Source of the DNA: an uncultured Alcaligenaceae bacterium
Lineage (GTDB): Bacteria > Pseudomonadota > Gammaproteobacteria > Burkholderiales > Burkholderiaceae_B
DNA length: 13,896 nt
Direction: 5' to 3'
NCBI GenBank assembly: GCA_937897265.1
Contig: CALCPT010000518.1
Span: forward strand, 1-13,896
The stretch's first letter is position 1, and the number at the start of each line of letters is the position of its first letter. The translations under genes and the position numbers were made by a program. Below the pieces are notes generated by a model that saw nothing but the letters and a program-made list of their open reading frames with translations, had not been told where the DNA came from and made no database searches. Of this stretch, positions 1 to 13,896 are shown one piece after another.

Positions 1-373
1 CAGTCAAGGTGTACGGAAACCCTTTCGCCTGAAACACTTGCCCATTCAGGATTTTTCCGCAAGAGCCGACGATGGCATCGCAGGGGCTCGTCATGATCTC
101 TGGGTTGTGATCGACGCAGCGCGCACCCTCGCGCAGTTCGCGCACAAAGCAATCGTGAAGGCTGTCAAAGCGTTGTTTTTTGGCTTCGCTCAAATCGAGG
201 TCGGTAAATAGTTTCCAGGTCGCAATCGAAACATCGCGTACCCAGCCCACCTTGATTTTGCTGAACCAGCCCATGAAATGCGTGACCGCAAGCCTAGGGA
301 TTCGGTTGGTGACCAAGAAATTTAGATCTTCATGTGCAAAGACATTTCTGACCGCTTTACTGATGTTCATCAT
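1..373 (-). CDS. psd: Phosphatidylserine decarboxylase, N-terminal part (runs off left edge)
   Basis: This enzyme decarboxylates phosphatidylserine to phosphatidylethanolamine at the inner membrane. I translated the minus strand from the ATG at 373 and obtained 124 open residues to the window edge. The stretch FVRELREGARCVDHNP, followed by SPCDAIVGSCGKI and FQAKGFPYTL, matches the conserved N-terminal half of the Psd family, where the usual motif reads SPCDG. The pyruvoyl-forming LGST-type site lies outside the window and cannot be checked. A second ATG directly follows the first (370), and an AAGGTGA ribosome site precedes the pair, so either may be the start. The gene diverges from the aminotransferase at 418 with 44 bases between. 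Family assignment is confident; completeness is unknown. Confidence 0.88.
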   Translation of the reverse strand, partial: MMNISKAVRNVFAHEDLNFLVTNRIPRLAVTHFMGWFSKIKVGWVRDVSIATWKLFTDLDLSEAKKQRFDSLHDCFVRELREGARCVDHNPEIMTSPCDAIVGSCGKILNGQVFQAKGFPYTLT

Positions 374-374
374 T

Positions 375-392
375 TCGTCACCTTAAAGTCAT
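375..392 (+). promoter_or_regulatory. Weak PHO-box-like tandem repeat between psd and the aminotransferase
   Basis: The sequence TCGTCACCTTAAAGTCAT holds two GTCAY cores exactly 11 bases apart, matching the spacing of the PhoB consensus CTGTCAT-N4-CTGTCAT (5 of 7 in each half). A poorer half-site, TGTTCAT, lies 11 bases further upstream (364-370). No good -10 hexamer follows at the expected distance, and the aminotransferase ribosome site begins only 15 bases on. This may be chance. Confidence 0.18.
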
Positions 393-417
393 AAAAAGGA
401 GTTTTCGAGGCAAAACT

Positions 418-2082
418 ATGACTGATCAAATTTTGAATGTTCTGCAATACATCACTGCGGCTGCAGTAGGGCTCTGGTTGTTGTTGAGAGTCAAGCAACG
501 GCTCGAACTCTCGGTTGCCAAATATCCCTCTTTGGGCGGACACCTGCGTTGGGCCAAGCGTATCGCGCGCTGGGTGCCTGGCTACTCGTACTCCGACGAC
601 AAATGGTTTGACGCCGATGGCGCCCCACCTGAGGTGGTGAAACAGCGTCGTGCGGCTCTTGAAACGTTGGGTAATGATCTGCGTACCCGCAGTGCGTTGA
701 CTCTGGCGCATACCGCAGCGAGTAAGCCCATGATTTCTGATTTGCAGTTCATCAGCAACTATCGGGTGCCGTACCAGTTTCGTGAAGTGTTGCAGCAACA
801 CATTCAGTTGGGCAGCTTCTGGCTGAGCAGCGATGGCGTTTGGCTGACCGACATGGACGGCAATCGTTTGATGGATGTGACCGGATCGTACGGTGTGAAC
901 TTGTTTGGTCTGGATTTTTATAAATCTTGCATTGAAGAGGGAAGTCAGCTTGTGCAAAACCTGGGTCCGGTTTTGGGCTCTTACCACCCCTGTGTGCTCG
1001 ATAACATTCGTCGTCTGTGCGCGATCTCGGGTAAAGACGAAGTTTCGTTCCACATGTCGGGTACTGAGGCTGTCATGCAAGCCGTGCGTCTGGCACGCTA
1101 TCAAACCGGTCGGCAAAAAATTGTTCGCTTCACCAGTGCCTATCATGGCTGGTGGGATGACGTGCAACCGGGTCCGGGCAATCCGATGCCACCCTCTAAG
1201 CATACGTTGACGTTGCGTGAAATGCACGAGAACACGCTGCGGGTCTTGCGCAATCGTCGTGATATTGCCTGTGTGTTGGTCAACCCGATACAAGCGATGC
1301 ACCCTAACCAGGCGGCACCAACCGATTCGACGCTGGTTGATGGTGGACGACGCGTGAATTATGATCGTGCGGCGTATACCGCTTGGCTTAAGGAATTGCG
1401 CCAAGTATGCACCGAACGCGGCATTATCTTTATTTTGGATGAGGTCTTTTTGGGCTTCAGACTTGCCCCGGGTGGAGCTCAAGAATATTTCGGCCTTGAA
1501 GCGGACATGGTCACCTACGGTAAGACCCTTGGTGGCGGCTTGCCAATCGGTATTCTGTGCGGTAAGAAGAGCCTGATGAAGCGTTTCTACGCTGATCATC
1601 CGGCCGATATTTGCTTTGCACGAGGTACCTTCAATGCACACCCTTATGTGATGGGTGCGATGAATGTCTTCTTGCATCGTCAAGATACCCCAGACGTTCA
1701 GAAGCTTTATGCAGAGCTTGAAACGACCTGGATCACACGCAAGAATCAGCTTAATGCTTTGCTCAAGCGTGAAGGCCTCCCTCTGCAGGTTGAGGCCATG
1801 TCGACGGTGTGGACGGTGTTGTACGACGTACCAAGCCGCTTTAACTGGTTGTTGCAGTTTTATTTGCGTCGCGAAGGCATCGCACTGAGCTGGGTGGGTA
1901 CGGGCAGACTGATTTTTAGTCTGAACTTTACCGATGCGGATTTTGATGAATTTTGCCAACGTTTTGTACGAGCTGCACATCAGATGGCTGCGGGCGCTTG
2001 GTGGTGGACGCCGCAAGGGCAAACAAACAAACAAATTAAACGCCGTATGTTGTTAGAGATGGTGCAGCAGACAAAGCTGTAA
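418..2082 (+). CDS. Membrane-anchored class III PLP-dependent aminotransferase
   Basis: This 554-residue protein belongs to the fold-type I class III aminotransferases, the group of glutamate-1-semialdehyde aminomutase and omega-transaminases. Visible motifs are FHMSGTEAVMQAVRLAR (PLP phosphate binding), SAYHGWWDD, ILDEVFLGFR with the cofactor Asp at 341, and TYGKTLGGGLPIG with the Schiff-base Lys at 369. Family members are usually 430-460 residues. The extra length is an N-terminal extension of about 100 residues that begins with a hydrophobic segment (about residues 8-24), so the enzyme is probably anchored at the inner membrane. A GAGG ribosome site sits 7 bases before the ATG. Its neighbours are a phosphatidylserine decarboxylase and other membrane proteins, which suggests a lipid-linked or membrane-associated amine substrate. 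The actual substrate cannot be read from the sequence. It is not ordinary HemL, which is soluble and lacks this extension. Confidence 0.85.
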   Translation: MTDQILNVLQYITAAAVGLWLLLRVKQRLELSVAKYPSLGGHLRWAKRIARWVPGYSYSDDKWFDADGAPPEVVKQRRAALETLGNDLRTRSALTLAHTAASKPMISDLQFISNYRVPYQFREVLQQHIQLGSFWLSSDGVWLTDMDGNRLMDVTGSYGVNLFGLDFYKSCIEEGSQLVQNLGPVLGSYHPCVLDNIRRLCAISGKDEVSFHMSGTEAVMQAVRLARYQTGRQKIVRFTSAYHGWWDDVQPGPGNPMPPSKHTLTLREMHENTLRVLRNRRDIACVLVNPIQAMHPNQAAPTDSTLVDGGRRVNYDRAAYTAWLKELRQVCTERGIIFILDEVFLGFRLAPGGAQEYFGLEADMVTYGKTLGGGLPIGILCGKKSLMKRFYADHPADICFARGTFNAHPYVMGAMNVFLHRQDTPDVQKLYAELETTWITRKNQLNALLKREGLPLQVEAMSTVWTVLYDVPSRFNWLLQFYLRREGIALSWVGTGRLIFSLNFTDADFDEFCQRFVRAAHQMAAGAWWWTPQGQTNKQIKRRMLLEMVQQTKL

Positions 2083-2163
2083 GGGTCTGCTGTGTGATCG
2101 GTCATTACAGACTTTTAGCGCGGTGGTGAGGGTGTTCAAAGCGGTCTAGCAAGGTAGTGATGA

Positions 2164-2206
2164 CAATCAGAGACTTAAATTTCTTACGAACTTAACTCTC
2201 TGATTG
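2164..2206. repeat. Inverted repeat between convergent genes
   Basis: CAATCAGAGA at 2164-2173 is perfectly complementary to TCTCTGATTG at 2197-2206. A mismatch and four further inner pairs (TTAA/TTAA) follow. It lies in the 197-base gap where the aminotransferase and the membrane protein gene converge, so a two-way transcript-end hairpin is possible. There is no GC-rich core or T-run, so it is not a standard intrinsic terminator. I saw nothing else in this gap. Confidence 0.35.
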
Positions 2207-2279
2207 AATCTTGTTCAGTGCTGCTAAAGTTACTGGTTGAATCCGTCCAGTGAGGCCCAAGACCCCACCTTCACTCTGC

Positions 2280-2888
2280 TTAATGTGATTGAATATGTGG
2301 CATGGGGTCAATCAATTCACCGCGCATTAAATAGATGGGTGAGCGACGGTACAGCATGACGTCATGAAATGGGTCTGTCAAAATCTTCAACGCCCAAGCG
2401 AACGCCGCCTTGAAACTGTCTTTAATGCACAACTGCGCGACTCTGAATAACAAGCCAGCAACGCCCAAAAACAGCCAAGCCATACCGACAATACGCACTG
2501 TCGTATCTTCGTAAGCCTCGGGTACCGCCCAGGTGATGAGAGAAGGTTGCAGGTAAGCCAGCACCGGTACTGCGGCCCAAATTGACAGCAACACAATCTT
2601 GCGATGTAAGTTGTAGCCAACTTTAATTTCTTCTTTGTGCTCGTGGGTCGCTTGATTAACGTGATCGTAGCCCTTTGGCTCAAAAAAGAAATGACCAGAT
2701 TGGCGCGTCGTCATCGCCACTAACCAGGCAACCAACGAGGCTGCGACAGGATTGATGAAGAGCAATACATACGACACTAGAAACGATAAAGCGCTGACCA
2801 AGTGCAGGCTTTGATTAATGCGACTGTGGTGATAATAACGATGATCATCCCAGCGCTGTATTTTTAAAGTGTTTAGCAATTCTTTCAT
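2280..2888 (-). CDS. Multi-pass membrane protein, tentatively DUF962/Mpo1-like
   Basis: This 202-residue protein has about four hydrophobic segments, at roughly residues 30-45, 47-60, 98-125 and 132-155. A polar His-rich N-terminal half carries HHSRINQSLH (residues 20-29), GHFFFE (65-70) and DHVNQATHEH (75-84). The pattern of paired His, Asn and His before the first membrane segment, followed by GHFFFE after the second, resembles the DUF962/Mpo1 family. Yeast Mpo1 in that family is an iron-dependent dioxygenase of 2-hydroxy fatty acid breakdown. I infer a metal-binding, lipid-acting membrane enzyme, but the family match is from memory. The C-terminus (KILTDPFHD and RRSPIYLMRGELIDP) is cytosolic-looking and unfamiliar. 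An AAGGA ribosome site precedes the ATG. It is divergent from the glycosyltransferase and convergent with the aminotransferase. Confidence 0.6.
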   Translation of the reverse strand: MKELLNTLKIQRWDDHRYYHHSRINQSLHLVSALSFLVSYVLLFINPVAASLVAWLVAMTTRQSGHFFFEPKGYDHVNQATHEHKEEIKVGYNLHRKIVLLSIWAAVPVLAYLQPSLITWAVPEAYEDTTVRIVGMAWLFLGVAGLLFRVAQLCIKDSFKAAFAWALKILTDPFHDVMLYRRSPIYLMRGELIDPMPHIQSH

Positions 2889-3012
2889 CGTGATCCTTTG
2901 TGTTATCCGTGTCGCAAATCGAATGGTTGATGGGCAACTCCTCAGGTGAGATTATTTCAGAAGCATTGAGTCAAAAGATGAATTTTTGATGACATTCGTG
3001 TTGCAGTTTATT

Positions 3013-3047
3013 TTCATATAGTCGCTGTCATCGAACGGTTATATGAA
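3013..3047. repeat. Inverted repeat TTCATATA/TATATGAA in divergent promoter
   Basis: TTCATATA at 3013-3020 is the exact reverse complement of TATATGAA at 3040-3047, with 19 bases between. It sits in the 199-base gap between the divergent genes starting at 2888 and 3088 and brackets the candidate PHO box. It could be an operator or an AT-rich coincidence. Confidence 0.3.
3025..3042 (+). promoter_or_regulatory. Candidate PHO box upstream of the GT4 gene
   Basis: CTGTCATCGAACGGTTAT has a perfect first PhoB half-site (CTGTCAT), a 4-base spacer and a 5-of-7 second half-site (CGGTTAT). A TACAGT hexamer (3053-3058; 4 of 6 to TATAAT) begins 10 bases after the box, which is the spacing typical of PhoB-activated promoters. 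That would place transcription start near 3065 and leave a short leader before the ATG at 3088. A weaker reverse-oriented pair (ATGACAT-N4-GTTGCAG, 2989-3006) faces the other gene. The motif is seen; PhoB control is inferred. Confidence 0.4.
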
Positions 3048-3087
3048 TTGATTACAGTCATACAAACCTCAGTGATAAAGAGCTCAG

Positions 3088-4338
3088 ATGACAGAATACG
3101 CGCCCATTCAAGTCGATCGAATTTATCCCGATAAGCCTAGCCTCAGAATAGCGTTGGTGACTGAAACCTACCCTCCCGATATTAATGGGGTGGCTCACAC
3201 TGTTTCAAAAATAGTAGAAGGCTTGCGCTCTCGTGGGCACGAATTGATGTTGGTTAGGCCAAGGCATCACAGCGACACCGAGGCGGCCGCCGATTCACGC
3301 TATCAAGAAGTTTTGGTGCGCGGTGCACCGATTCCGATGTACAAGCAGTTGCGCATGGGCTTGCCCGCTCAGGGTGCTTTGCAAAAATTGTGGCTCAAGC
3401 AGCGCCCTGATCTCGTGCATATCGCGACAGAGGGGCCTTTGGGGTGGTCGGCCTCGCGGGCGGCGCGTAAGCTCAAAATACCCACAAGTTCAGACTTTAG
3501 AACCAATTTTCATGCCTACAGCCAGTTTTATGGATTTGGCTGGCTCAAGGGTGCGATTGTTGCCTACATGCGAAAATTCCATAACGCGACGCACTGCACG
3601 ATGGTTCCAACACAGGGCTTGATGGCAGAGCTGTCAAAGATCGGGTTTGATCGCTTGATGGTTGTGCCGCGTGGCGTGGATACAGAAAACTTTTCGCCCC
3701 TAAAACGCGATGAACAACTACGGCAAAGCTGGGGTGCGACTGCAGAGACGCAAGTTTTGCTGTCCGTTGGGCGTCTGGCTGTTGAGAAAAATCTCGATAC
3801 GGTCGTGCGTTGTTTCAAATCATTACAAGCCCGTGGTTTGCCAGTCAAACTGGTGATTGTTGGAGATGGCCCGTTGCGTCAAAGCCTCGAGCGCAGTATC
3901 CCAGAGGCGATCTTTGCAGGCACACGCACAGGCGTAGATTTGGCGAAGCACTATGCTAGCGCCGATTTGTTTATTTTTCCAAGCTTGACTGAGACCTTTG
4001 GTAACGTGACGATTGAGGCCATGGCAAGTGGTCTGGCCGTGGTGGCTTACGATCATGCGGCGGCCGGACAGCTCATCGAGCACAAACGCAATGGAATGGT
4101 GTTGGCGCCGAACCAAGACGCGCAGCTCTTCGAGGCGGCTCGGCAACTTGTCGAAGACTCTGCCCTGCAAACGCAAGTTCGAGTGGCTGCACGTCAGACA
4201 GCAGTGGATCGGGATTGGAGCTCGGTGATTGCGCGCACTGAGGGGATTTTTAGATCATTGATTGCTAATGAGGATCCCGCCGCCGTTGTGGTGTCTGAAC
4301 GCTCGAAGGCATCGGGTTTACCTCAGGCGTTACGCTGA
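3088..4338 (+). CDS. GT4-family glycosyltransferase, glycolipid-type
   Basis: This 416-residue retaining GT-B glycosyltransferase belongs to family GT4. The N-terminal domain opens with LRIALVTETYPPDINGVAHTVSKIVEGLRSRGHE, the glycine-containing acceptor-side motif of this group. The C-terminal nucleotide-sugar domain has LLSVGRLAVEKNL, LVIVGDGP, and the E-x7-E motif in SLTETFGNVTIEAMASG (Glu302 and Glu310). There is no transmembrane helix; such enzymes usually sit on the inner face of the membrane. The pattern resembles SqdX/MgtA/Agt-like enzymes that glycosylate diacylglycerol or related lipids. The sugar donor and acceptor cannot be assigned here. The ribosome site is weak. A candidate PHO box upstream and the lipid-gene neighbours favour a role in glycolipid synthesis over capsule or LPS assembly. 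It converges with the HAD gene, and the 109-base gap holds only a weak 5-bp hairpin (4351-4371). Confidence 0.85.
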   Translation: MTEYAPIQVDRIYPDKPSLRIALVTETYPPDINGVAHTVSKIVEGLRSRGHELMLVRPRHHSDTEAAADSRYQEVLVRGAPIPMYKQLRMGLPAQGALQKLWLKQRPDLVHIATEGPLGWSASRAARKLKIPTSSDFRTNFHAYSQFYGFGWLKGAIVAYMRKFHNATHCTMVPTQGLMAELSKIGFDRLMVVPRGVDTENFSPLKRDEQLRQSWGATAETQVLLSVGRLAVEKNLDTVVRCFKSLQARGLPVKLVIVGDGPLRQSLERSIPEAIFAGTRTGVDLAKHYASADLFIFPSLTETFGNVTIEAMASGLAVVAYDHAAAGQLIEHKRNGMVLAPNQDAQLFEAARQLVEDSALQTQVRVAARQTAVDRDWSSVIARTEGIFRSLIANEDPAAVVVSERSKASGLPQALR

Positions 4339-4447: not shown

Positions 4448-5113
4448 TTAGAGGCGAGTCTCTGCGTAGTCGACAAAGCTTGCTGCAATAGGGTACTGCT
4501 GCACCGAGTTATCGCCGTAGCCGCTTCGATGAAATACGAACGGGATGCCGCAGTTGCTTGCACAGAGCGCGTCCACGTGCGTATCTCCAACCAGCACGCA
4601 GTCGCTGGTCTTGACTTTCAGCGCGGCGATTGTTGTGAGCAGGGGTAACGCGTGAGGCTTGGGATGAGCGGTGGTATCACCACCGGTCACGACGGTAAAG
4701 TAGGCAGACAACCCGTGTCTTTCAAGCGCTTGCTTAGCTGACCCTTCAATTTTATTAGTGCATACGGCTAAGTGATGCCCTGTAGAGCACAAGTGATCAA
4801 GTAAGGCCAAGACGTTTGGGTAAAGAAACGAATGGTCATGCGCTTGGTGCGCGTAGTGCTTTAAATACGCCTGTTGGATGTCTTCGGCAGCCGCAGCGGG
4901 AGCCTGAACGAGCTGCATCACCGAAGCTAGAATGTCGGGCAATGGGCCATATAGGTTCGGAATCACTTGCTCGGGGGCAAGCGTCTGAAAGCCGCAATCA
5001 AGTAGTGCTTGATTAGCGGCCTGCCGAATATCGGGCTCGGTGTGCATGAGCGTGCCATCAAGGTCAAAGACGATGGCCGCAGAGTGATTGATATAGTCTT
5101 TGGCTGTCTTCAT
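4448..5113 (-). CDS. HAD-superfamily phosphatase, Gph-like
   Basis: This 221-residue hydrolase of the haloacid dehalogenase superfamily resembles phosphoglycolate phosphatase. All four motifs are present: FDLDGTL (nucleophile Asp17, acid/base Asp19), Thr119 in VCTNK, Lys152 in HPKP, and LVGDTHVD with Asp177 and Asp181. An alpha-helical cap follows motif I. It is the last gene of the operon. The chosen ATG at 5113 overlaps the stop of the upstream hydrolase as TGATG, implying coupled translation; a GTG one codon earlier (5116) is also possible. It lacks the DWAGT motif of phosphonoacetaldehyde hydrolase, so it should cleave a phosphate ester, not a C-P bond. I infer that it dephosphorylates a product of the pathway or detoxifies a by-product. 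The substrate is unknown. Confidence 0.85.
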   Translation of the reverse strand: MKTAKDYINHSAAIVFDLDGTLMHTEPDIRQAANQALLDCGFQTLAPEQVIPNLYGPLPDILASVMQLVQAPAAAAEDIQQAYLKHYAHQAHDHSFLYPNVLALLDHLCSTGHHLAVCTNKIEGSAKQALERHGLSAYFTVVTGGDTTAHPKPHALPLLTTIAALKVKTSDCVLVGDTHVDALCASNCGIPFVFHRSGYGDNSVQQYPIAASFVDYAETRL

Positions 5114-6663
5114 CACCGAGACACCAAGCCAGCTGGAGATGCCGCATAGCCAGTCAAGGTACGGTCGGCATGTAGAAGCTTCCAGTCAAGCATCTTTTGC
5201 GTCATCTTTAACAGCTCGAGCGTATAGCTGGGATCTTGCGCAACATTATGAAGTTGTGCTGGATCCTTCGTCAGGTCAAAGAATAATGGTGGCAAAGCCG
5301 CAAAATGAACATACTTATACTCATCGTTTTGAATCACTGAAAGCGCGCACTGATCCATTGAGATGCCTAAAAAATCTTCAGGCTTTGAATAGTAAATATT
5401 TCTAAAATCAAATTCATAGTGCACTTCAGTGCGCCAGTCGGCAGGCGCGATACCTGTTTGTACAAACGGCAACAGCGACCGCCCGTCGCACGTTCTCGGT
5501 ATCGGCCGTTCAAGCCAGCTCAAGATTGTGGGCATAGTATCAATTGTTTCGGTAAAGTGCCGAACAATATTGCCTCGCGTAGCATCTGCTTCAGGGTTTG
5601 GATCACGCACAATCATAGGAATATGAAAGCTCTGATCGAAGTAGCCAATCTTACCTAAGAGGTGGTGATCGCCCAATTGCTCGCCGTGATCGCTGGTGAG
5701 AATGATGAGGGTGTTATCCCACTGACCGGTCTTTTTTAGGTAGTCAAAGACGCGTCCGATGTGATGATCAACCTCAGACATTAAGCCGTAGTATGTGGCA
5801 CGCATTTGACGGACTTCAGCGTCTTGCATATCGGCGCCAAGCCCTTGCCCATTTTCAAAGAAGCGGCGACGTTCAATGGATTGAAGGTAATACGCCAAGA
5901 GTGGATGCTGTGATGCTTCGAGGTCTTTGCTTGATGCTCGAATTGGCGATGGGCAGTCTTTTGGGTCATACATCTCGTGATAGGGTGCTGCCGCGCAAAA
6001 GGGTGGGTGAGGGCGGTAGTAGCCAAGATGCAAGAACCAAGGTTTATTTTCAGTCCCTTTAAGGTATTCGAGTGCGCGGTCAGTGAACCATGTGGTGTCG
6101 GATAAATGCGCGGGGACCATACTTGGCTTGGCCGTTGCGCCAATATCGGCCTCGGTAACGTCTTGCGGTAACCAGATATCGTTAGGCTTTTCAGGCATAG
6201 CGAAGCCCTGAGAGGCCAGCCAGGCAAAGTAGGCCTCTTTATCCAACCCCCACGAACCGACGGGATGCCAGCCCTCCATATCTGCACCTAAGACTTTAAA
6301 GCGCGGGTCTTCGGCAGCCGTTTCACGAGGATCAGGTGTCGTAGTGGTGTAGCCGACCAAGGCGGGCTGATAGCCGGCCTTGCGGACTTCTTTTGCGATA
6401 TTGGTGTGACGCGCATCAAGCGGAATCGTATTTTGTACCGCGCGGTGAGTCATCATATAAAGACCGGTCAGCATCGAGGCGCGACCAGGGCCGCAAGGGA
6501 CGGCTTGCGTGTAATGCTTAGCGAAAGTGACACCTTCACTTGCTAAGGATTCGATGTTTGGAGTTTGAATGACAGGGTGTCCAAGATTTTTGAGAGTATC
6601 ACCACGCCATTGGTCAACCACAATCAAAAGGACATTTTTTTGTTTAGCTGTCATGAGATGCAT
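5113..6663 (-). CDS. pehA: Phosphonate monoester hydrolase / phosphodiesterase (PMH)
   Basis: This alkaline-phosphatase-superfamily enzyme cleaves the P-O ester bond of phosphonate monoesters and, promiscuously, phosphodiesters and sulfate esters. It aligns closely, as I recall the sequences, with the Rhizobium leguminosarum and Burkholderia caryophylli PMHs over its whole 516 residues. It shares KNVLLIVVDQWR, VPCGPGRASMLTGLY, HRAVQNT, VGYTTTTPDPR, LHLGYYRPHPPF and TSDHGEQLGDHHLLGKIGYF. Cys57 in CGPGR is the C-x-P-x-R residue converted to formylglycine. Asp17, Gln18, Asn78, Thr107, His219, Asp325, His326 and Lys338 match the known metal and substrate ligands. There is no signal peptide, so it acts in the cytoplasm. 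A second ATG at 6654 gives an N-terminus closer to the characterised enzymes. It lies 14 bases after the permease gene and overlaps the HAD gene. No formylglycine-generating enzyme is in the window. Confidence 0.92.
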   Translation of the reverse strand: MHLMTAKQKNVLLIVVDQWRGDTLKNLGHPVIQTPNIESLASEGVTFAKHYTQAVPCGPGRASMLTGLYMMTHRAVQNTIPLDARHTNIAKEVRKAGYQPALVGYTTTTPDPRETAAEDPRFKVLGADMEGWHPVGSWGLDKEAYFAWLASQGFAMPEKPNDIWLPQDVTEADIGATAKPSMVPAHLSDTTWFTDRALEYLKGTENKPWFLHLGYYRPHPPFCAAAPYHEMYDPKDCPSPIRASSKDLEASQHPLLAYYLQSIERRRFFENGQGLGADMQDAEVRQMRATYYGLMSEVDHHIGRVFDYLKKTGQWDNTLIILTSDHGEQLGDHHLLGKIGYFDQSFHIPMIVRDPNPEADATRGNIVRHFTETIDTMPTILSWLERPIPRTCDGRSLLPFVQTGIAPADWRTEVHYEFDFRNIYYSKPEDFLGISMDQCALSVIQNDEYKYVHFAALPPLFFDLTKDPAQLHNVAQDPSYTLELLKMTQKMLDWKLLHADRTLTGYAASPAGLVSR

Positions 6664-6677
6664 CCGTTAGAAATAAG

Positions 6678-7550
6678 TTAGCGCAGAGTAGGATCTAGCT
6701 TGTCGCGCAGCCAGTCGCCGGTGAGGCTGATTGAGAAGGTGGTCAACACAATGACGCAGCTTGGTGCAAGCAAAATCCAGGGCGCGGTTTGTAGATACTC
6801 GCGGCCATAGCCGACCATGTTGCCCAGACTGGTCAGCGGAGGTTGAACCCCTAAGCCTAAAAAAGATAAGCCCGACTCAAGCAAAATTACTTCAGGAAAT
6901 GTCAGGGTCATGCTAACGATCAGCGTGCTCGCGATATTGGGCAGAATGTGCCGAAAATAGACGCGCCAAGAACTGGCGCCCAAAGCATGTACCGCATTGG
7001 CATAGCCTTGCTCATTGGCTGCAATCGTTAGACTCCGCGTGATGCGAGCGCTGCGTTCCCAGCCGTGGCAGCCCATTAAGCAAATAAACAATACGAGTGT
7101 ATTGCCAAAGAAGGCCAACACAGCCAACGCAATAATCATGAAGGGGATCGATGCTTGAAAATCAATCAGCGTGAGTACGATCTGCTCAATCCAGCCTTTG
7201 AAATGTGCCGCCAAAAAACCTAAGATCAGACCGATCGTTGCTGAAAGCAAGGTGCTGGCAAAAGCGATTAACAGACTCACCTGCACTGACGTCAGTAGTC
7301 GCGAAAGCACGTCGCGTCCAAGTTCATCCGTGCCAAGTAAATGCCTAGCCGAGCCCCCAAAGCCCACGGGTGGTTGCAGGCGTGCCTTGAGATCAAGCGC
7401 AGTATAGGCATAGGGGGCAAGAAGATCAGCCAACGCCGCGACGATGAAGATCCCTAGAATCCACGCGATCGATAGGATAACAAGCGGTGGATATTCTTGC
7501 CAAAAATATCGACTCGAGGCATGTGGAATAGAAGAGGCTAGAACTGCCAT
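6678..7550 (-). CDS. Opp/Dpp-type ABC transporter permease, DppC-like
   Basis: This is the second inner-membrane permease of the oligopeptide/nickel-type importer. The N-terminal segment PLVILSIAWILGIFIVAALADLLAPY is followed by the family hallmark HLLGTDELGRDVLSRLL, five more hydrophobic segments, and the EAA loop NAVHALGASSWRVYFRHILPNI that docks on the ATPases. The C-terminus, GDWLRDKLDPTLR, is typical. The frame is open back to 7673, but that start would overlap the upstream permease by 62 bases. I chose the ATG at 7550 because it gives 290 residues, the normal size, beginning MAVLASSIPHASS. The ribosome site is weak, so translation may depend on readthrough from the preceding gene, which ends 61 bases earlier. 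It pairs with the permease at 7612-8544. Confidence 0.88.
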   Translation of the reverse strand: MAVLASSIPHASSRYFWQEYPPLVILSIAWILGIFIVAALADLLAPYAYTALDLKARLQPPVGFGGSARHLLGTDELGRDVLSRLLTSVQVSLLIAFASTLLSATIGLILGFLAAHFKGWIEQIVLTLIDFQASIPFMIIALAVLAFFGNTLVLFICLMGCHGWERSARITRSLTIAANEQGYANAVHALGASSWRVYFRHILPNIASTLIVSMTLTFPEVILLESGLSFLGLGVQPPLTSLGNMVGYGREYLQTAPWILLAPSCVIVLTTFSISLTGDWLRDKLDPTLR

Positions 7551-7611
7551 GGCGGATAACTTTTTTGAGTGAAGACTACGAGGGCTGAATAGAGGATTCG
7601 ATAGTTGTCGC

Positions 7612-8544
7612 TTACTGATGCGCGCGTGAGCTCGCGCGTAAGCGCGGATCAAACAAGCAGTAGATGGCATCAACGACTAGGTTGGTTGCCACCATACTGA
7701 CTGTAATCAGCAGCAAGGCGGCTTGAACGACAGCCAAGTCCCGATTGCCCACTGCAGAAACAGTCAGTCGACCGACCCCTGGCCAAGAAAATACGCTTTC
7801 AACGACAACGGCGCCGGCGATCAAACCCCCAAGCATGAGTCCAGCGATCGTGACGATTGGCAAGGCTGCATTGGGCAGAGCATGGCGAGTGACGACTTGA
7901 GACCAGCGTAGACCTTTTGCCGACGCAGCTCGAATATAGGGTTGTCCCAAGACCTCTAACATCGACGAACGTGTGTAACGCGCCAACACAGCAGCGCCAC
8001 CTACCGTTAACGTCAGTACTGGCAAGATGGCATGCTCAACTCCGCTATACCCTCCGCTGGGTAACCAACCAAAGCTAACCGCAAAAATGAGTACCAGTAA
8101 AAGCCCCAGAACGAAGCTTGGCAAGGTGTGTCCCGCAACAGACAGACTCATGACAATACGATCGATCCATGAGTTGCGATGTAGGGCAGCAAAAATACCA
8201 GCGGGTATGCCGATCAACAGATTTAGAGCAAAGGCGGGAAGCGCTAGCGCAAGCGTGGCTGGGATCGCCTCAAGCACGAGCCTCATCGCTGGGCTCCCAT
8301 CGCGCATCGACACACCAAAGTTACCGTGAATAATATTGAGTAAATAACCCCAAAACTGCTGCCAAAGAGGCGCGTCAAGACCCCAGCTCTCACGAAAAGC
8401 CGCAATGGCTTCTGGAGGTGCGTCCGCTGATAAGATCATCATCGCTGGGTCGCCAGATAAGCGCAGGATCGTAAAAGCAAAACCGACTACCAACAAAATA
8501 GTGAGCAACGCACGCAAACTGCGGGACAACATGTAGCGACCCAT
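7612..8544 (-). CDS. Opp/Dpp-type ABC transporter permease, DppB-like
   Basis: This 310-residue inner-membrane permease shows the typical DppB layout. An N-terminal helix (residues 9-27) is followed by a periplasmic stretch containing GDPAMMILSADAPPEAIAAFRESWGLDAPLWQQFWGYL and HGNFGVSMRDGSP. Five more helices follow, with the EAA loop in AASAKGLRWSQVVTRHALPNAALPIV. The C-terminus, DAIYCLFDPRLR, is the usual ending. Its ATG lies 2 bases after the stop of the ATPase gene; an alternative ATG lies four codons in. It forms the translocation pore with the DppC-like subunit. The last codons contain a GC-rich hairpin described separately. Substrate type cannot be read from the permease itself. Confidence 0.92.
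   Translation of the reverse strand: MGRYMLSRSLRALLTILLVVGFAFTILRLSGDPAMMILSADAPPEAIAAFRESWGLDAPLWQQFWGYLLNIIHGNFGVSMRDGSPAMRLVLEAIPATLALALPAFALNLLIGIPAGIFAALHRNSWIDRIVMSLSVAGHTLPSFVLGLLLVLIFAVSFGWLPSGGYSGVEHAILPVLTLTVGGAAVLARYTRSSMLEVLGQPYIRAASAKGLRWSQVVTRHALPNAALPIVTIAGLMLGGLIAGAVVVESVFSWPGVGRLTVSAVGNRDLAVVQAALLLITVSMVATNLVVDAIYCLFDPRLRASSRAHQ
7621..7638. repeat. GC-rich hairpin at the 3' end of the dppB-like gene
   Basis: CGCGCG at 7621-7626 pairs with CGCGCG at 7633-7638 across a 6-base loop, inside the final codons of the permease. It precedes the only sizeable gap (61 bases) in the transporter block. It might stabilise or process the message. It may equally reflect the Arg/Ala codons there. 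Confidence 0.25.
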
Positions 8545-8546
8545 GT

Positions 8547-9548
8547 TTAGCTACCAGAGCCATGATGAATCATGGTGTGAAGATGGCAACTGACTGTATG
8601 CGCTTCGCCAATGCGAGTCGTAACGGGAGCGTTCGTTTTGCAGTGTGCGGTAGCGAGTGCGCACCGGGGATGAAAACTACAACCGGTTGGAACATCAACC
8701 GGATTAGGTGGTTCGCCTTTGAGGATAATGCGCCCTGAATTAGCGGCCGCATGTTTGACGCCCGGCGTCGATACCGCTGAAATCAAGGCGCGAGTGTAAG
8801 GGTGAGCTGGATGAGACAAGACATTTTTTGCAGAGCCTTGTTCGATAATCCGACCCAAATACATCACGGCAACTTCGTCGCAGATATGACGCACGACACG
8901 CAGGTCGTGACTAATAAATAACATCGTCAGATTCATCTGCTGCCGCAAATCAGCCAGTAGATTAATCACCTGTGCCTGCACTGAAACGTCAAGCGCAGAG
9001 ATCGGCTCGTCGCAGACAAGCAAGCTGGGTTTGAGCACTAAGGCGCGTGCTAGAACAATGCGCTGACGTTGGCCACCCGATAACTCATGGGGGTAGCGTT
9101 GAAACAAGTTGTCTGTCAGGCCGACGGCGCGCATCATGTTTTGTGCCGCAGCGAGTGGTTGGATCTCACCATGCTTGTCGTGGATATTCAAGGGCTCAAT
9201 GACCTGCTCAAGAGCAGTCAGGCGCCGATCGAGTGCGCTAAGTGGGTCTTGATACACCATTTGCATATGGCGGCGGGCGGCTCGCCACGCCCGATTGCGT
9301 TGCGCGGTGACGGGTTTGCCATCAAACTCAACAGAGCCGGCAGTCGCGGGGATCAAACCAAGCACCAATTTGGCCATCGTAGACTTGCCGCAACCTGACT
9401 CGCCGACGATCCCCAGAGTTTTACCACGCTGCACACTTAACGTAACACCATCAACGGCGCGTAAGATTTTTTTACCAGATAGCCAATCTTTATTTCCCTC
9501 AACAGAGAAGTGCCGCTGTAAATTGTTAACGCTTAACAATGGTGTCAT
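8547..9548 (-). CDS. Opp/Dpp-type ABC transporter ATPase, DppF-like
   Basis: This 333-residue nucleotide-binding subunit shows Walker A GESGCGKST (Lys55), Q-loop VYQDPLSALDRR, signature LSGGQRQR, Walker B LLVCDEPISALD and the switch His in FISHDL. The C-terminal oligopeptide-transporter domain has the Cys-rich stretch CSFHPRCALATAHC plus a later Cys. The frame extends upstream to 9623, but the ATG at 9548 overlaps the stop of the preceding ATPase as ATGA and yields the normal MTPLLSVNNLQRHF start, so I chose it. It partners with the DppD-like ATPase to power import through the two permeases. Confidence 0.92.
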   Translation of the reverse strand: MTPLLSVNNLQRHFSVEGNKDWLSGKKILRAVDGVTLSVQRGKTLGIVGESGCGKSTMAKLVLGLIPATAGSVEFDGKPVTAQRNRAWRAARRHMQMVYQDPLSALDRRLTALEQVIEPLNIHDKHGEIQPLAAAQNMMRAVGLTDNLFQRYPHELSGGQRQRIVLARALVLKPSLLVCDEPISALDVSVQAQVINLLADLRQQMNLTMLFISHDLRVVRHICDEVAVMYLGRIIEQGSAKNVLSHPAHPYTRALISAVSTPGVKHAAANSGRIILKGEPPNPVDVPTGCSFHPRCALATAHCKTNAPVTTRIGEAHTVSCHLHTMIHHGSGS

Positions 9549-10531
9549 GCTGCGAGCTTTCTTGTGCAGGCTAAAGCATGCCCGACGGCAATAGTTCTTA
9601 AAGAGGGTGAGCTCAAGCGACAATTGTCGTGCGCAAAATCGCAGCGAGCCTCAAAGCGACAACCTTGTATGAGTTGCCCCGCCTGAGGAATACTGCCTCG
9701 TATGGTTGTCAGACGGTGAACTTCGGTATTCAAAACAGGCATTGCCGCTAACAGACCAAGGCTGTACGGATGTTGCGCCTCGGAGAATAAGGTCTGGCTT
9801 GGTGCGCTTTCAACAATCGATCCGGCATACATCACCAGCACGCGGTCACTAATTTTTGAGATCACGCCAAGGTCGTGCGAGATCGTGACAAGAGCCATCC
9901 CAGTGTCTCGCCGTACTGTATCAAGTAATAACAAAATTTGAGCTTGCACTGTTGCATCTAAAGCGGTAGTGGGCTCATCGGCGATGAGTAAATCGGGTTG
10001 CCCGGCTAGGGCCATGGCAATCATGATACGTTGATTCATGCCGCCCGACAATTCATGTGGGTAGGCGTTCATGCGCCTTTTTGCATCTGGGATTTCAACC
10101 TGATCCAGCAAGGCAAGTACTTCTGCGCTTGCCTCAGCCCCTCGCAAGCCTCGATGAAGAGCCAGGCTTTCTGCAATTTGTGCACCAACGCGCTGCGCGG
10201 GATTCAGAGATGAGCTCGGGTCTTGAAAAATCATCGCTATTTTGCGACCACGGATTTGAGACAATTCTGTATCCGACAAGCCAAGCAACTCGCGGCCTTG
10301 AAATTTAACCGAGCCTGTCACGCGAGTGTGTTTACCCAGTAAGCCGAGTACGCCTAGCCACGTGACACTTTTTCCGCAGCCGGATTCACCGACCAAGCCA
10401 ATCGATTCGCCAGACGCTATCGTCAGGTCAACGCCATGCAACACCTCTGAGGTGTGCCCGCGTTGGTCAAACGCAATGCGCAACTCACTAATTGTCAGTA
10501 GCGGGCTAGGATTCGTGGCAATCGAGCTCAT
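9545..10531 (-). CDS. Opp/Dpp-type ABC transporter ATPase, DppD-like
   Basis: This 328-residue ATPase shows Walker A GESGCGKS (Lys54), Q-loop IFQDPSSSLNP, signature LSGGMNQR (LSGGMRQR in most relatives), Walker B LLIADEPTTALD and ISHDL. Its C-terminal domain carries CRFEARCDFAHDNC plus a fourth Cys near the end (HALACTRK), the cluster that can hold a 4Fe-4S centre in DppD-type subunits. Its ATG overlaps the TGA of the solute-binding protein gene by four bases (ATGA), and its own stop overlaps the next ATPase start the same way. The two are therefore probably made in equal amounts by coupled translation. Confidence 0.92.
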   Translation of the reverse strand: MSSIATNPSPLLTISELRIAFDQRGHTSEVLHGVDLTIASGESIGLVGESGCGKSVTWLGVLGLLGKHTRVTGSVKFQGRELLGLSDTELSQIRGRKIAMIFQDPSSSLNPAQRVGAQIAESLALHRGLRGAEASAEVLALLDQVEIPDAKRRMNAYPHELSGGMNQRIMIAMALAGQPDLLIADEPTTALDATVQAQILLLLDTVRRDTGMALVTISHDLGVISKISDRVLVMYAGSIVESAPSQTLFSEAQHPYSLGLLAAMPVLNTEVHRLTTIRGSIPQAGQLIQGCRFEARCDFAHDNCRLSSPSLRTIAVGHALACTRKLAA

Positions 10532-12198
10532 TGCTTAGGAGGAGTGAGATTCGTTGCGCGAAAATCCATGACGAAGGTCTTAGAGGCCTTCCAGGCAAAG
10601 TCTTTACGCTTCGCATAAAACACTGCGCTTTGATGTAGAACCGTATAGGCGGGGTCTTCGCGCTCGGCAATCTCTAGCATGCGCTTGAAGGTTTGTTGTC
10701 GTTCGACTGGGTCGACTGAGGTCGATAGGGTGTCAGATAATTTATTGAACTCAGCGTTTGTCCATTCGCCAGTCTGTTGTTGTTGGCCGTTGGGGCCATG
10801 CTGATTGACGAGTGAACTTACCGGATCACTGAAGGGTGCCGAATTCGACCAACCGCGAACCCCGCGAGTTGCACCTTTTTCGAAAATTTGCGCCCAGTTT
10901 TCTTTCATGGACATCTGCACGTTCAGACCGGCAGAACGCCACATCTCAAGCATAATTTGGTCGGTCTGTGTTTGATTGGTGTAGTAGTTATTCAAGCCCC
11001 TGAAGTGAATCACTTCGCCCTTATAGCCAGCTTCAGTCAGAAGCTTTTTTGCAAGCGCGACGTCATATTTCGGTACGGTCCAGCCTTTCACAAACATGTC
11101 GCCATAGAACTCGAATTGCAAGCCGGCGGGTACGCGAGTATGGCCACCCCAAATTGCTTCGACGATAGCGTCGCGATCAATCGCATGGGTCATGGCCTGT
11201 CGTACTTTCGGATTGGCCAGTACAGGGTGGTTTTTGTCGAAAGTGATCAATCTGTGATTAAGAACGGGACCACCAACCACTTCGAACTTAACGTTGCCTT
11301 GAATCGTTTTGAACTGGTCTGGTGGAATATCTGTAATGAAGTCGTACTGCCCCGACAGCAGGCCGTTGATCCGTGAAGATACCTCTGGCACCACCATGTA
11401 ACGAATTTCTTTAACGAGTGGTTTACCGCCAAAGTAGTCATCGTGCGCACTCAAGACCAGATACTGATCCATTTTCATCTCTTTGACTTTGAACGGCCCC
11501 GCGCTCACCGGTGCCTGAGCCCAGCTTGCCCAGTCTTTTGATGCCATATAGGCTTTCTTTGAAACAACCTCAGAGCCTAAACGCGCAATGCGCCCCTCTA
11601 GGGTAAGGTCTGGTACAGCATTGATTAGGCGTACGGTGTAGCGATCAATGACCTCAACGCTTTGCAATGAAGGCCATAAATTACGTGCGATCGCAGTAAT
11701 CTCAGGTGGAGGCAATTCCATGCTGCCGGCAGTTGAACTCGTGGTCTTGCGACCTATGTCTACCGCAATCGTTTTGCTGTCTTGGTCGGATTGACGGGGT
11801 GCAGAGGTTCCGAACATCCGTTCGGCACCAAAGCTAAACGCAACGTCTTCAGCAGTCACCTCGTCGCCGTTGTGAAACTTAACACCAGGGCGTAACTTGA
11901 ATTCAACTGTCTTGGCGTCAATGCGCTTCCACGACTCAGCAAGTGAGGGCTGGGGCGAGAGGTCTCCAACCGTATCAAGTTGGATCAGACCGGCATAAAT
12001 CATGGGCAACATGCGGGTGCCGACGTTGCTCTGCTCGCGCAAGGGATCCAGAGCACCACTTGTCAGTAACTGTTGTACGGCCACACGCACCACTGGGCGG
12101 GTATCCGTGGCTTGTGCAAAGACGCTCGGGTGCGCCAGAGCACACAGCGAGAATGCTGCGAGTTTCAAGAACCAACGTTTCGAGTGAAGCAGTTGCAT
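10528..12198 (-). CDS. Periplasmic solute-binding protein, family 5 (Opp/Dpp type)
   Basis: This 556-residue substrate-binding protein delivers ligand to the Opp/Dpp-type importer. The N-terminus has a Sec signal peptide (basic SKRW, hydrophobic LKLAAFSLCALA, likely cut after Ala28 in VFA-QA). No clear lipobox surrounds Cys19, so it is probably soluble in the periplasm. Family-5 features include LAESWKRIDAKTVEFKLRPGVKFHNGDEVTAEDVAFSF and KVRQAMTHAIDRDAIVEAIWGG. The ribosome site AGGA lies 5 bases before the ATG. It starts 41 bases after the HD-domain gene and overlaps the first ATPase gene. This family binds peptides, sugars, metals and opines. The hydrolase at the end of the operon suggests a phosphonate- or phosphate-ester ligand, but that is inference. 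Confidence 0.9.
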   Translation of the reverse strand: MQLLHSKRWFLKLAAFSLCALAHPSVFAQATDTRPVVRVAVQQLLTSGALDPLREQSNVGTRMLPMIYAGLIQLDTVGDLSPQPSLAESWKRIDAKTVEFKLRPGVKFHNGDEVTAEDVAFSFGAERMFGTSAPRQSDQDSKTIAVDIGRKTTSSTAGSMELPPPEITAIARNLWPSLQSVEVIDRYTVRLINAVPDLTLEGRIARLGSEVVSKKAYMASKDWASWAQAPVSAGPFKVKEMKMDQYLVLSAHDDYFGGKPLVKEIRYMVVPEVSSRINGLLSGQYDFITDIPPDQFKTIQGNVKFEVVGGPVLNHRLITFDKNHPVLANPKVRQAMTHAIDRDAIVEAIWGGHTRVPAGLQFEFYGDMFVKGWTVPKYDVALAKKLLTEAGYKGEVIHFRGLNNYYTNQTQTDQIMLEMWRSAGLNVQMSMKENWAQIFEKGATRGVRGWSNSAPFSDPVSSLVNQHGPNGQQQQTGEWTNAEFNKLSDTLSTSVDPVERQQTFKRMLEIAEREDPAYTVLHQSAVFYAKRKDFAWKASKTFVMDFRATNLTPPKQ

Positions 12199-12239
12199 GT
12201 GAATCCTGTTCTGTTGCCAAATGAGTGGGCGACGTGATG

Positions 12240-12794
12240 TTAAAGAGCCACGCTATGCATAATTTTTAAAAAGTGAGGCAAGTTTGGTGTGGCGGCAGCA
12301 GGCACTTTCGCCAAATCGTCATACCGACGCAGTCGTACCGCTTCGTGAGCAAAAGACTGAGCTTCAAACTCGGCCGCTTGAGGTGGGGTATAGACGCCAC
12401 CTTGCACAATAAGACTGTGTTTAGAAGCCGTCGAAAGTGTTCCCCAGTAAGACTGATCTGTCGCGCACAGGTAGCGCTTAGCATCGACATGCAAGCGAAT
12501 GGGTTCAAGTACAGCACTCGAGAACAAGCCTCGTAGAAACGGCAAGGCAACGTATTGATGTAAGTCGTCGCCGCGTTCGGCGCTTCCGCTTTCTTGAAGG
12601 CGGCCGGTCTTAGCCAATAAATGACCAATATCATGCAAAAGTGCTGCTGTGATCGTGTGCGCAGTTTCAGCGGCTTGTTCAGCCAAGGCCGCGCATTGAA
12701 GTGCGTGTTCAAGCTGACTGACCGCTTCACCACCGTACTGGTTTTTTCCCTCAACGGTTAGCAGCTGAGTGATGTCATCTAAAGTCAAAGCCAT
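12240..12794 (-). CDS. PhnZ-like HD-domain diiron oxygenase (phosphonate catabolism)
   Basis: This 184-residue HD-domain protein is of the type found in phosphonate-degradation operons. PhnZ and TmpB in this group use a mixed-valent diiron site to split the C-P bond of a 1-hydroxyphosphonate, releasing phosphate. The visible metal ligands fit: His30 in EHALQCA, His54-Asp55 in LLHDIGH, His79, His102 in LHVDAKRYL, and Asp159/160 in YDDLAK. Tyr20 and Glu23 in YGGE correspond to the pair that gates the iron site in PhnZ (Tyr24 and Glu27). That separates it from plain HD phosphohydrolases. An AAGG ribosome site precedes the ATG, 12 bases after phnE. Its usual partner, a PhnY/TmpA Fe(II)/2-oxoglutarate hydroxylase, is not in the window. 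I am confident of the family but not of the substrate. Confidence 0.85.
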   Translation of the reverse strand: MALTLDDITQLLTVEGKNQYGGEAVSQLEHALQCAALAEQAAETAHTITAALLHDIGHLLAKTGRLQESGSAERGDDLHQYVALPFLRGLFSSAVLEPIRLHVDAKRYLCATDQSYWGTLSTASKHSLIVQGGVYTPPQAAEFEAQSFAHEAVRLRRYDDLAKVPAAATPNLPHFLKIMHSVAL

Positions 12795-12806: not shown

Positions 12807-13523
12807 TTAAACAAGTGCCCGGCGAATGCGCGCAGAGAGCAAATCAATACAGGTCACTGTCGCGATAATAATGAGCATGACCGCACAGGTTTCTGCATAC
12901 TGAAAACCACGAATGATTTCCCACAACACAACGCCGATACCCCCCGCGCCCACCATACCTACAACGGTCGCCGAACGAACGTTTGACTCAAAGCGGTATA
13001 AGGTGAAAGAAATCCAAAGCGGCATGACCTGAGGAATCACTCCGTACAAGATTTCATGCAAGGCCGAGGCACCGGTCGAACGAATCCCCTCAACCGGTTG
13101 CGGGTCGATCGATTCGACAGCTTCAGAAAATAGTTTGGCCAAGATGCCAGTGGTATGAATCCATAGTGCCAACACACCAGCAAAGGGCCCGAGCCCCACA
13201 GCCACTACAAACAACATGGCGAATACCATCTCGTTGATGGCGCGACACGCATCCATCAGCCGACGAAAGGGCTGATAAACCCAAGGTGGAACTAGATTGG
13301 CTGACCCTAAAAGAGCCATCGGAATGGCAGTGATCACTGCAAGCGTCGTGCCCCAAAGTGCAATTTGCAGAGTCACCAGCATTTCTTCAATAAACAGCCG
13401 CCACTGTGAAAAGTTAGGCGGGAAGAAGTCAGCAGCGTAAGTTGCCATGTTGCCCGAGTCTTTAATCAAGTCTAGCGGGCGCATATCTGCCCCCTGCCAA
13501 GAGCCTGTCAACGCGAGCAACAA
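12807..13523 (-). CDS. phnE: Phosphonate ABC transporter permease PhnE, 5' end disrupted
   Basis: PhnE is the inner-membrane permease of the PhnCDE phosphonate importer. Visible are [31 protein letters not shown], five hydrophobic segments, and the EAA-type loop [40 protein letters not shown] and a normal C-terminus follow. The only start in the open frame is a TTG at 13523, which falls inside the first membrane helix. The frame continues upstream to 13619 with no ATG, GTG or TTG. PhnE-like residues ([18 protein letters not shown]) go back to about 13553, after which the sequence gives way to a reverse transcriptase on the other strand. The native start has therefore been lost. It may be a non-functional remnant or be expressed from a substitute start. 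PhnC and PhnD are absent. Confidence 0.85.
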
Positions 13524-13896
13524 TGCAGCCCAAGACCCGTACCAAAGAAGACTATGCTTGCTTGGAGCGGGTGCTGGCAGCGTTGATTCGTTACACCGAA
13601 GGAAGATTGCAACTGATCGTCAACCGCGCCAAAAGCCGCGCCGCGCCGCTCAAAGCCTGCGAGTTCCTCGGCTACCGATTGAACAACCGGGCAAAGCTGG
13701 CGTGGACGGAAAAGGCGCACCACCGTTTCAAGGAACGGATCAGGGTAATCACCAGCCGCAACCGCGGGTACAAGGTCCAGACCGTCATCGACGAGCTAAA
13801 TCTATATGTCCGGGGTTGGCTCAACTACTACAAGCTCAGCTCCACCTTCAAAGAGGTGCGGGCGTTGTCAGTATGGGTCAGGCGGCGGGTGAGGTT
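13523..13896 (+). pseudogene. Group II intron reverse transcriptase/maturase, C-terminal fragment
   Basis: The plus frame encodes 124 residues to the window edge. It matches the end of group II intron-encoded proteins: [28 protein letters not shown] (end of the RT palm and thumb), then FKERIRVITSRNRGYKV and ELNLYVRGWLNYY (maturase domain X), and a final LSVWVRRRVR. The catalytic YADD and all earlier RT motifs are missing. The ATG at 13523 lies in DNA that codes for phnE on the other strand, so this start is accidental. Real intron sequence begins somewhere around 13550-13585. The GC-rich base use differs from the neighbouring genes. Loss of the 5' end is what incomplete reverse transcription during retrohoming produces; a contig misjoin at a repeated intron would look the same. 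The right end is not visible. Confidence 0.85.

Follow-up and report, generated by a model that had tools for sequence, protein, structure and literature searches.

The window analysed here is the entire 13,896-base contig CALCPT010000518.1 (C518) of an uncultured Alcaligenaceae bacterium (assembly GCA_937897265.1; 3.75 Mb in 728 contigs, 89% complete). Its minus strand carries a tight array of nine genes in which a phosphonate monoester hydrolase (PMH, or PehA) stands with a family-5 ATP-binding cassette (ABC) importer and a PhnZ-like HD-domain oxygenase (Phn-HD). On balance, we think it probable that this operon imports and cleaves intact phosphonate monoesters, R-O-P(O)(O-)-C, as its main cargo; a mixed cargo of phosphonate monoesters and phosphodiesters is quite possible. 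The gene content, conservation, ligand-contact residues and linkage described below were all computed. Studies of catalytic promiscuity use PMH/PehA enzymes as a model. In the portions of the open-access literature covered by our search, from which the original PMH papers are absent, we found neither a physiological role for PMH/PehA nor any account of an operon that joins PMH to an importer.

The PMH gene (5113..6663; minus strand, as are all genes of the array) passes the NCBIfam PehA model NF045661 (926 bits, cut-off 900), and its product matches the crystallised Rhizobium enzyme RlPMH (2vqr) at 711 bits. It has the formylglycine motif C57GPGR (CxPxR) and the segment GY105TT107, with Thr107 present. 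RlPMH/PehA, encoded on plasmid pRL9, and BcPMH (2w8s) belong to the same NCBIfam equivalog and share both features. In the sections of PMC5488252 available to us, a Thr107-type signature marks proficient phosphodiesterases and PMHs, and RlPMH has two primary activities, toward phosphonate monoesters and phosphodiesters. Judged by eye, the window PMH has no visible signal peptide, and the hydrophobic N-terminus of the binding protein resembles one. The ester would therefore have to enter the cytosol before PMH acts.

The solute-binding protein (10528..12198; SBP_bac_5) had been tied to phosphonate esters, rather than to peptides or nickel, in a first-pass annotation of this DNA, and it is nearest to a binder of sugar phosphodiesters. 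Its closest solved structures are those of AccA, the agrocinopine binder (8c6u, E 7e-84, about 35% identity); the next family member follows at E 3e-33, and AccA outranks the peptide and nickel binders. According to the available part of PMC4526662, Asn54 and Ser419 of AccA touch sugar and phosphate, and Tyr375 and Tyr376 hold phosphate oxygens. In our alignment all four contacts (N54, Y375, Y376, S419) are kept, as N58, Y405, Y406 and S451, and so is the AccA hinge residue Asn284, as N314. The pyranose contacts Y145, W178, M372, T430, E434 and E510 have become L, L, L, S, Q and F; Glu504, also named in the AccA paper, was left out owing to a chain mismatch at the offset used. Since the pyranose contacts are lost, the ligand should not be an agrocinopine, and on its aligned residues the window protein is not an agrocinopine binder. 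The retained phosphate subsite suggests a charged phosphorus-ester ligand. An AlphaFold model of the binding protein, built from an 11-row alignment, was too poor for use (mean pLDDT 55.5).

Named-species genomes were scanned with the window binding protein, and the best 80 of 494 relatives were taken as importer loci (numbered L; genomes are numbered G and contigs C). The four contacts are intact in 86 of 87 binding-protein frames from these 80 loci, and the full string NNYYWSN in 83. Among 30 family-5 proteins checked in four genomes, exactly the three adjacent to a PMH (window, L119 and L122) keep the four contacts; the other 27 do not, and neither do the four E. coli K-12 proteins DppA, OppA, NikA and GsiB. 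These 30 proteins, seen in 34 frames with four partial second views, come from 30 checked loci among 43 PF00496 matches; at least two run off a contig end, with some columns missing, and the view of the 13 other matches was limited to those of L124, which retain the contacts, and of L120, which do not. The divergent PMH-linked binding proteins of L122 and L124, about 30% identical to that of the window, keep all four contacts, as does a Roseibium protein (L215, 38% identical) for which AccA is also the nearest solved structure. An ordinary oligopeptide importer could have come by chance to lie beside a promiscuous arylsulfatase-like hydrolase, and the unrelated contexts of distant PMH homologues, described below, would fit such an accident. 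We consider this very improbable, given that of the 30 family-5 proteins checked in four genomes only the PMH-linked ones carry the residue signature, and that the linkage occurs in two gene orders and two classes.

The first-pass annotation had proposed looking for this neighbourhood in other genomes, and the neighbourhood is not unique to this one. A PMH of more than 50% identity accompanies the importer in 30 of the 80 loci, 12 betaproteobacterial and 18 alphaproteobacterial (PMH-like matches of 21-22% in L090 and L112 were left uncounted). PMH lies downstream of the importer in betaproteobacteria and upstream of it in alphaproteobacteria; on one 3.2-kb contig (L044) it comes straight after OppD. 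Given two gene orders, the linkage has been either rebuilt or retained through rearrangement. The narrower adjacency of PMH, family-5 binding protein and HD oxygenase is found in the window's clade and elsewhere in L120 alone, there with a different importer; HD is out of view in 25 of the 30 importer loci that have PMH.

The alphaproteobacterial arrangement includes the type enzyme, RlPMH. On plasmid pRL9 of R. johnstonii 3841 (L072/L117), an annotated PehA is followed by a binding protein, two ATPases and two permeases. Over 514 residues this PMH matches the crystallised RlPMH (2vqr, pRL90232) at every position but 57, where the crystal sequence has Ala instead of Cys. It shares the importer type of the window, but stands upstream of the importer. 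The annotation of the 21.6-kb pRL9 stretch names no phosphonate gene. Upstream of pehA, on the same strand (L117:13511-19862), come genes for a sugar ABC importer, for a sugar phosphate isomerase/epimerase and for a Gfo/Idh oxidoreductase; two further R. leguminosarum plasmids show the same arrangement, which hints at a sugar as the alcohol part. The pRL9022x/pRL9023x names are absent from the main text, as far as it was available, of the R. leguminosarum transcriptome papers PMC3333776 and PMC6421345. Nine of 34 annotated plasmid PMH matches were read, and a family-5 importer lies directly behind PMH on five of them (pRL9, H1, H19, H20 and Roseibium H21). In Roseibium (L215) a phnF-annotated regulator is divergent from PMH, next to an importer whose binding protein retains the phosphate subsite.

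A tree of 64 PMHs (without L044, L046 and L131) places the window enzyme and RlPMH in one 31-member clade (100/99), in which 30 of 31 members have the importer, a proportion biased by the gathering of most members via the binding protein. Clade members found through PMH, besides the window, are L119, with an importer, and L157, without one. Across the whole tree the importer label requires three changes.

The window is very probably the downstream half of a C-P lyase operon enlarged by an ester importer and PMH. The seven closest loci among the best 80 (L037-L043), with binding proteins 92-95% identical to that of the window, come from metagenome-assembled genomes labelled Alcaligenaceae (two), Burkholderiaceae (one) and uncultured beta proteobacterium (two); the labels Bordetella parapertussis and Methylopumilus on the others are doubtful. 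The genes of a C-P lyase operon (phnCDE, phnGHIJKLM) stand upstream in these relatives: phnG to phnM directly upstream in L037, L042 and L043, from phnH in L038, in parts in L040, and phnC, D and E in L040 and L042. Downstream the order is HD, binding protein, D, F, B, C, PMH and HAD, as far as the contigs extend. Unlike a plain C-P lyase operon, the window type thus has extra cistrons for the ester importer, PMH, Phn-HD and HAD. In the window's own genome, phnG, phnH, phnI and a portion of phnJ lie on contig C447, where the DNA is 76% identical to L042. Because C518 is a whole contig, the upstream part of the operon is missing from the window; the stretch joining phnJ of C447 to phnE of the window was not found in the assembly, and a phnD search of the genome returned nothing but a 26% homologue. 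A scan for Pho boxes upstream of the operons gave mixed scores against shuffles and is not used as evidence: matches of 11-12 of 14 positions, reached by at most 14 of 300 shuffles, occur at L049, L050, L119, L084, L052 and C447, and at L072, L042, L037, L043, L045, L046, L047, L048, L055 and L060 at least 56 of 300 shuffles reach the score.

A survey centred on PMH, which avoids the bias of starting from the binding protein, supports the first-pass annotation in its pairing of PMH with phosphonate genes, as far as the window's order is concerned. In 300 genomes of this order (Burkholderiales), PMHs of at least 549 bits occur at ten places in eight other genomes, all of which were fetched with four weaker places, 14 of the listed PMH-like places in total. 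At seven of the ten strong places the 20-kb stretch includes phosphonate genes. HD homologues are found at L120 (207 bits in a trimmed frame, just below the Phn-HD cut-off), L125 (232 bits) and L126-L128 (by tblastn). L122 and L125-L128 have phnC, D and E; L125 and L127 also have C-P lyase genes, and L126 has an end of phnG. PhnA, phosphonoacetate hydrolase, passes its cut-off at L122 and L124, both of them loci with distant importers. A family-5 importer is present at four of the ten places (L119, L120, L122 and L124), in all but L120 with the four contacts. The weaker PMH relatives at L129-L132 (at most 346 bits) show single generic ABC-ATPase matches or nothing. Recurrence beside PMH, within the window's order, of three unrelated C-P-cleaving systems (C-P lyase, Phn-HD and PhnA) suggests that one half of the substrate is a phosphonate.

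Gene associations within these stretches were also seen. L122:3177-19193 and L124:89-12814 each hold one cluster of PhnA, an HpnZ-like alcohol dehydrogenase, an aldehyde dehydrogenase, the family-5 importer, PMH and a PhoD-like phosphatase; both genomes are without PhnJ. In L125-L128 the HD homologue adjoins an aldehyde dehydrogenase that shares about 31% identity with its L124 counterpart, which could indicate an aldehyde intermediate, and in L125, L126 and L128 a protein resembling MFS transporters by eye lies near it.

PMH and Phn-HD could instead work inside the C-P lyase pathway, clearing or recycling ribosyl-phosphonate or cyclic ribosyl-phosphate esters, with the Opp importer as a passenger. 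Clearing such esters is the niche of PhnP. We judge this improbable. PMH does lie between phnCDE and C-P lyase at L125 and L127 with no Opp importer in the 20-kb stretch, and the intermediates of C-P lyase are ribose phosphonate esters (PMC10574752, in the part available). PMH also occurs with an importer in genomes that have no PhnJ (L119, L122 and L124), and there the binding proteins carry the phosphate contacts, which speaks against an internal role.

PhnJ, a component of C-P lyase, is widespread among genomes with the importer. It was found in 43 of 45 importer-locus genomes, those of L046 and L050 being the misses; these 45 come from 46 of the 80 loci, a set without the window's clade and most Bradyrhizobium. 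For comparison, 30 of 300 genomes sampled from the window's order have PhnJ, and 99 of 199 from that of R. johnstonii. In the latter, PhnJ is present in 13 of 14 importer genomes versus 86 of 185 others (Fisher p 6e-4), or 12 of 13 with the centre genome removed (p 1.2e-3); the sample was chosen irrespective of the importer, except for the centre, and importers were accepted at E up to 1e-100. The lone importer genome without PhnJ in this order, G867, has the most diverged binding protein (49%). Within the window's order, PhnJ accompanies 5 of 9 PMH genomes versus 25 of 291 others (p 7e-4), four of those five being one genus.

From this pattern we infer the substrate class, the order of steps and the roles of Phn-HD and HAD. 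The AccA-like binding protein would catch the intact ester by its phosphorus oxyanion group, and the four-subunit ABC importer would carry it into the cytosol. There PMH, with its formylglycine nucleophile, would cut the P-O-R ester. The freed phosphonate would enter the pool that is imported by PhnCDE, and C-P lyase would break its C-P bond; in other lineages phosphonoacetate hydrolase would replace C-P lyase. Phn-HD might, as a guess, handle an alpha-hydroxylated subset of phosphonates, and the HAD protein probably strips phosphate from a released or parallel phosphomonoester. Of the open-access literature searched, PMC5649143 alone contains both 'phosphonate monoester hydrolase' and 'C-P lyase'. 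In its available part, seven of eight Sulfitobacter isolates have a PMH homologue, all C-P lyase isolates included, and the ester bond to dissolved polysaccharide is postulated to be cut by alkaline-phosphatase-like enzymes.

Phn-HD (12240..12794) passes TIGR03276 (225.4 bits, cut-off 214.6) and misses the 300-bit equivalog cut-offs of PhnZ1 and TmpB (148 and 138 bits). Its nearest solved structures are 6npa and 4mlm, and the residues that we take to be the metal and substrate residues of PhnZ are conserved in its alignment. It shares its HD family with the mixed-valent diiron oxygenases PhnZ, TmpB and PhnZ1. Unlike these, it has no hydroxylase partner among the window genes, and in relatives it sits with C-P lyase; a PhnY/TmpA-type hydroxylase was absent among the window genes, the rest of the genome not having been searched. 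By its family signature Phn-HD is a real member of the PhnZ-like oxygenases. Oxidation by this enzyme had first been proposed as the C-P step of the pathway, and the analysis does not support it as the main such step: relatives carry C-P lyase genes, and among the 80 importer loci, of which some are truncated, HD was seen in just 7, all in the window's own clade.

The last gene of the array (4448..5116) encodes a HAD-family phosphatase-like protein (PF13419) and was found in the window's own clade only. It scores below the cut-off of the phosphoglycolate phosphatase model (TIGR01449, 152.9 bits, cut-off 180).

Several observations weigh against a phosphonate monoester cargo or against a tight bond between importer, PMH and phosphonate metabolism. 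Within the window's order, L121 and L123 have neither the importer nor a clear phosphonate gene; L119 (genome G240), with a window-type importer and PMH, shows no phosphonate gene nearby; and L120 joins PMH and HD to an importer without the four contacts. Importers near PMH in L174, L175 and L178 lack these contacts too. A phylum-wide scan (398 genomes, threshold 1e-130) gave 22 further PMH genomes with 22 loci. None of these 22 stretches holds HD, C-P lyase genes or PhnA; seven hold a family-5 binding protein, and none of the eight proteins keeps the four contacts. PhnJ is found elsewhere in the genome in 18 of these 22 genomes. Four of the nine plasmid PMH loci (39-43% identity) have no such importer, and three of them have other ABC genes nearby. 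These distant homologues stand in contexts unrelated to that of the window. A phosphonate context is thus typical of those PMHs in the window's order that are closest to the window enzyme, and does not extend to PMH-like proteins at large.

The PhnJ counts call for similar restraint. PhnJ is present in 21 of 21 genomes whose locus is without PMH versus 22 of 24 with PMH, and being equally frequent in both it informs on the importer, not on PMH. PMH is present and PhnJ absent in G240, G169, G005 and G210. Phylogeny or genome size, neither of them controlled for, may underlie the association with PhnJ.

GDPD adjoins the importer in 5 of the 80 loci, none of them with PMH (a 31% GDPD-like match in L071 was left uncounted). 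A xylose-isomerase-like TIM barrel adjoins it in 36, of which three also have GDPD and one has PMH. Importer loci with one or the other are L051-L054 and L057, and L068 and L074-L116 from Bradyrhizobium and kin. With these enzymes beside the importer, the cargo may be a phosphodiester. The TIM-barrel gene was considered as a phosphodiesterase and left unassigned; its best NCBIfam match, a weak one, is to the phosphodiesterase CbiR (51.8 bits, cut-off 105), and in Pfam it falls in AP_endonuc_2.

The cargo could accordingly be a phosphodiester, for instance of a sugar or glycerol, handled as in the operon for agrocinopine catabolism (acc), with PMH in place of AccF and HAD in place of AccG, and with phosphonate genes merely sharing control by phosphorus starvation. 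In the available part of PMC4526662, acc encodes an importer, the phosphodiesterase AccF and the phosphatase AccG. Its family-5 binding protein, AccA, which works with the importer AccBCDE, is the nearest solved relative of the window protein and has the same phosphate-contact residues. The window would follow an acc-like logic of intact ester import, cytosolic ester cleavage and then a phosphatase-like gene, which here overlaps PMH. The gene order would fit acc if PMH and HAD are taken as the two enzymes; the enzyme families differ by annotation, no search with AccF or AccG having been made. The GDPD loci, the sugar-transport and sugar-isomerase genes adjoining pRL9 pehA and the phosphodiesterase activity of RlPMH (PMC5488252, in part) also suit a phosphodiester. 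We regard this alternative as less likely than the phosphonate monoester reading, and as the likeliest of the alternatives. Unlike acc, the window operon sits among phosphonate genes (phnE and Phn-HD, and C-P lyase in relatives), and PMHs of the window's order repeatedly have one or more of three different C-P-cleaving systems nearby. The checked AccA pyranose contacts are lost, and the HAD gene was found in the window's clade alone. Import and cleavage of phosphonate monoesters is the reading we prefer.

The array itself runs from 13523 to 4448 with intergenic distances of -79 to 41 bases. The first-pass annotation had placed nine tightly packed minus-strand genes in 4448-12794. The packing is as described; that interval holds eight genes, and the ninth is phnE (12807..13523), 12 bases upstream of HD. 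The identities it gave to PMH, Opp-type importer and PhnZ-like oxygenase stand, PMH and HD being over curated cut-offs and the importer consisting of SBP_bac_5, OppD/F and DppB/C types. Between the binding protein and PMH lie an OppD-type ATPase (9545..10531; best NCBIfam PRK09473 OppD, 348 bits, under cut-off), an OppF-type ATPase (8547..9623; best NCBIfam PRK15079 OppF, 367 bits, under cut-off), a DppB-type permease (7612..8544; PF00528 and PF19300) and a DppC-type permease (6678..7673; PF00528, homology in relatives), whose listed start is probably too far upstream. Gaps in bases are 41 for HD-SBP, -4 for SBP-OppD, -79 for OppD-OppF, 2 for OppF-DppB, -62 for DppB-DppC, 14 for DppC-PMH and -4 for PMH-HAD; the large overlaps hinge on the start codons chosen.

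The phosphonate ABC permease gene phnE (TIGR01097, 298 bits, cut-off 216.7) has a listed TTG start, and an 82% DNA match to phnE of L042 over 12819-13583 extends past it. On the plus strand, 13523-13896, up to the contig end, encodes part of a reverse transcriptase/maturase of group II intron type (61.9 bits to TIGR04416, positions 226-346). Maturase similarity begins at about 13562, an overlap of some 20 bases with the phnE similarity; L042 has phnD there. The overlap reflects either a truncated intron at the phnE start or an assembly join. Beside the operon, 2-4338 holds the start of a gene that by eye resembles phosphatidylserine decarboxylase, followed in our list by a 554-aa class III aminotransferase, a protein of Mpo1 type that narrowly misses the Pfam cut-off, and a GT4 glycosyltransferase whose closest families, all with scores below their cut-offs, are glycolipid synthases. 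Most of this block, which has the appearance of lipid metabolism, is found again in L038, L039 and L042.

Every part of this system is already known: PMH, Phn-HD and C-P lyase belong to named families, and among working models acc comes closest. Within the open-access literature searched, the combination appears new. More broadly, we see an even chance that AccA-like binding proteins define a class of their own among ABC importers, one that takes up phospho(no)esters intact and is served by interchangeable cytosolic hydrolases (PMH, GDPD and perhaps the TIM barrel), and that PMH in nature serves to open phosphonate monoesters, once imported, for C-P lyase, Phn-HD or PhnA. The operon gives a good chance of assigning a natural role to a model enzyme, and since RlPMH adjoins a dedicated importer with a phosphate subsite, that role is testable in Rhizobium. 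Accounts of bacterial phosphonate uptake deal mostly with free phosphonates. A route by which small esters are taken up whole, if true, would extend this picture, and would mean that phosphonate esters are common enough in the environment to merit a dedicated route of uptake.

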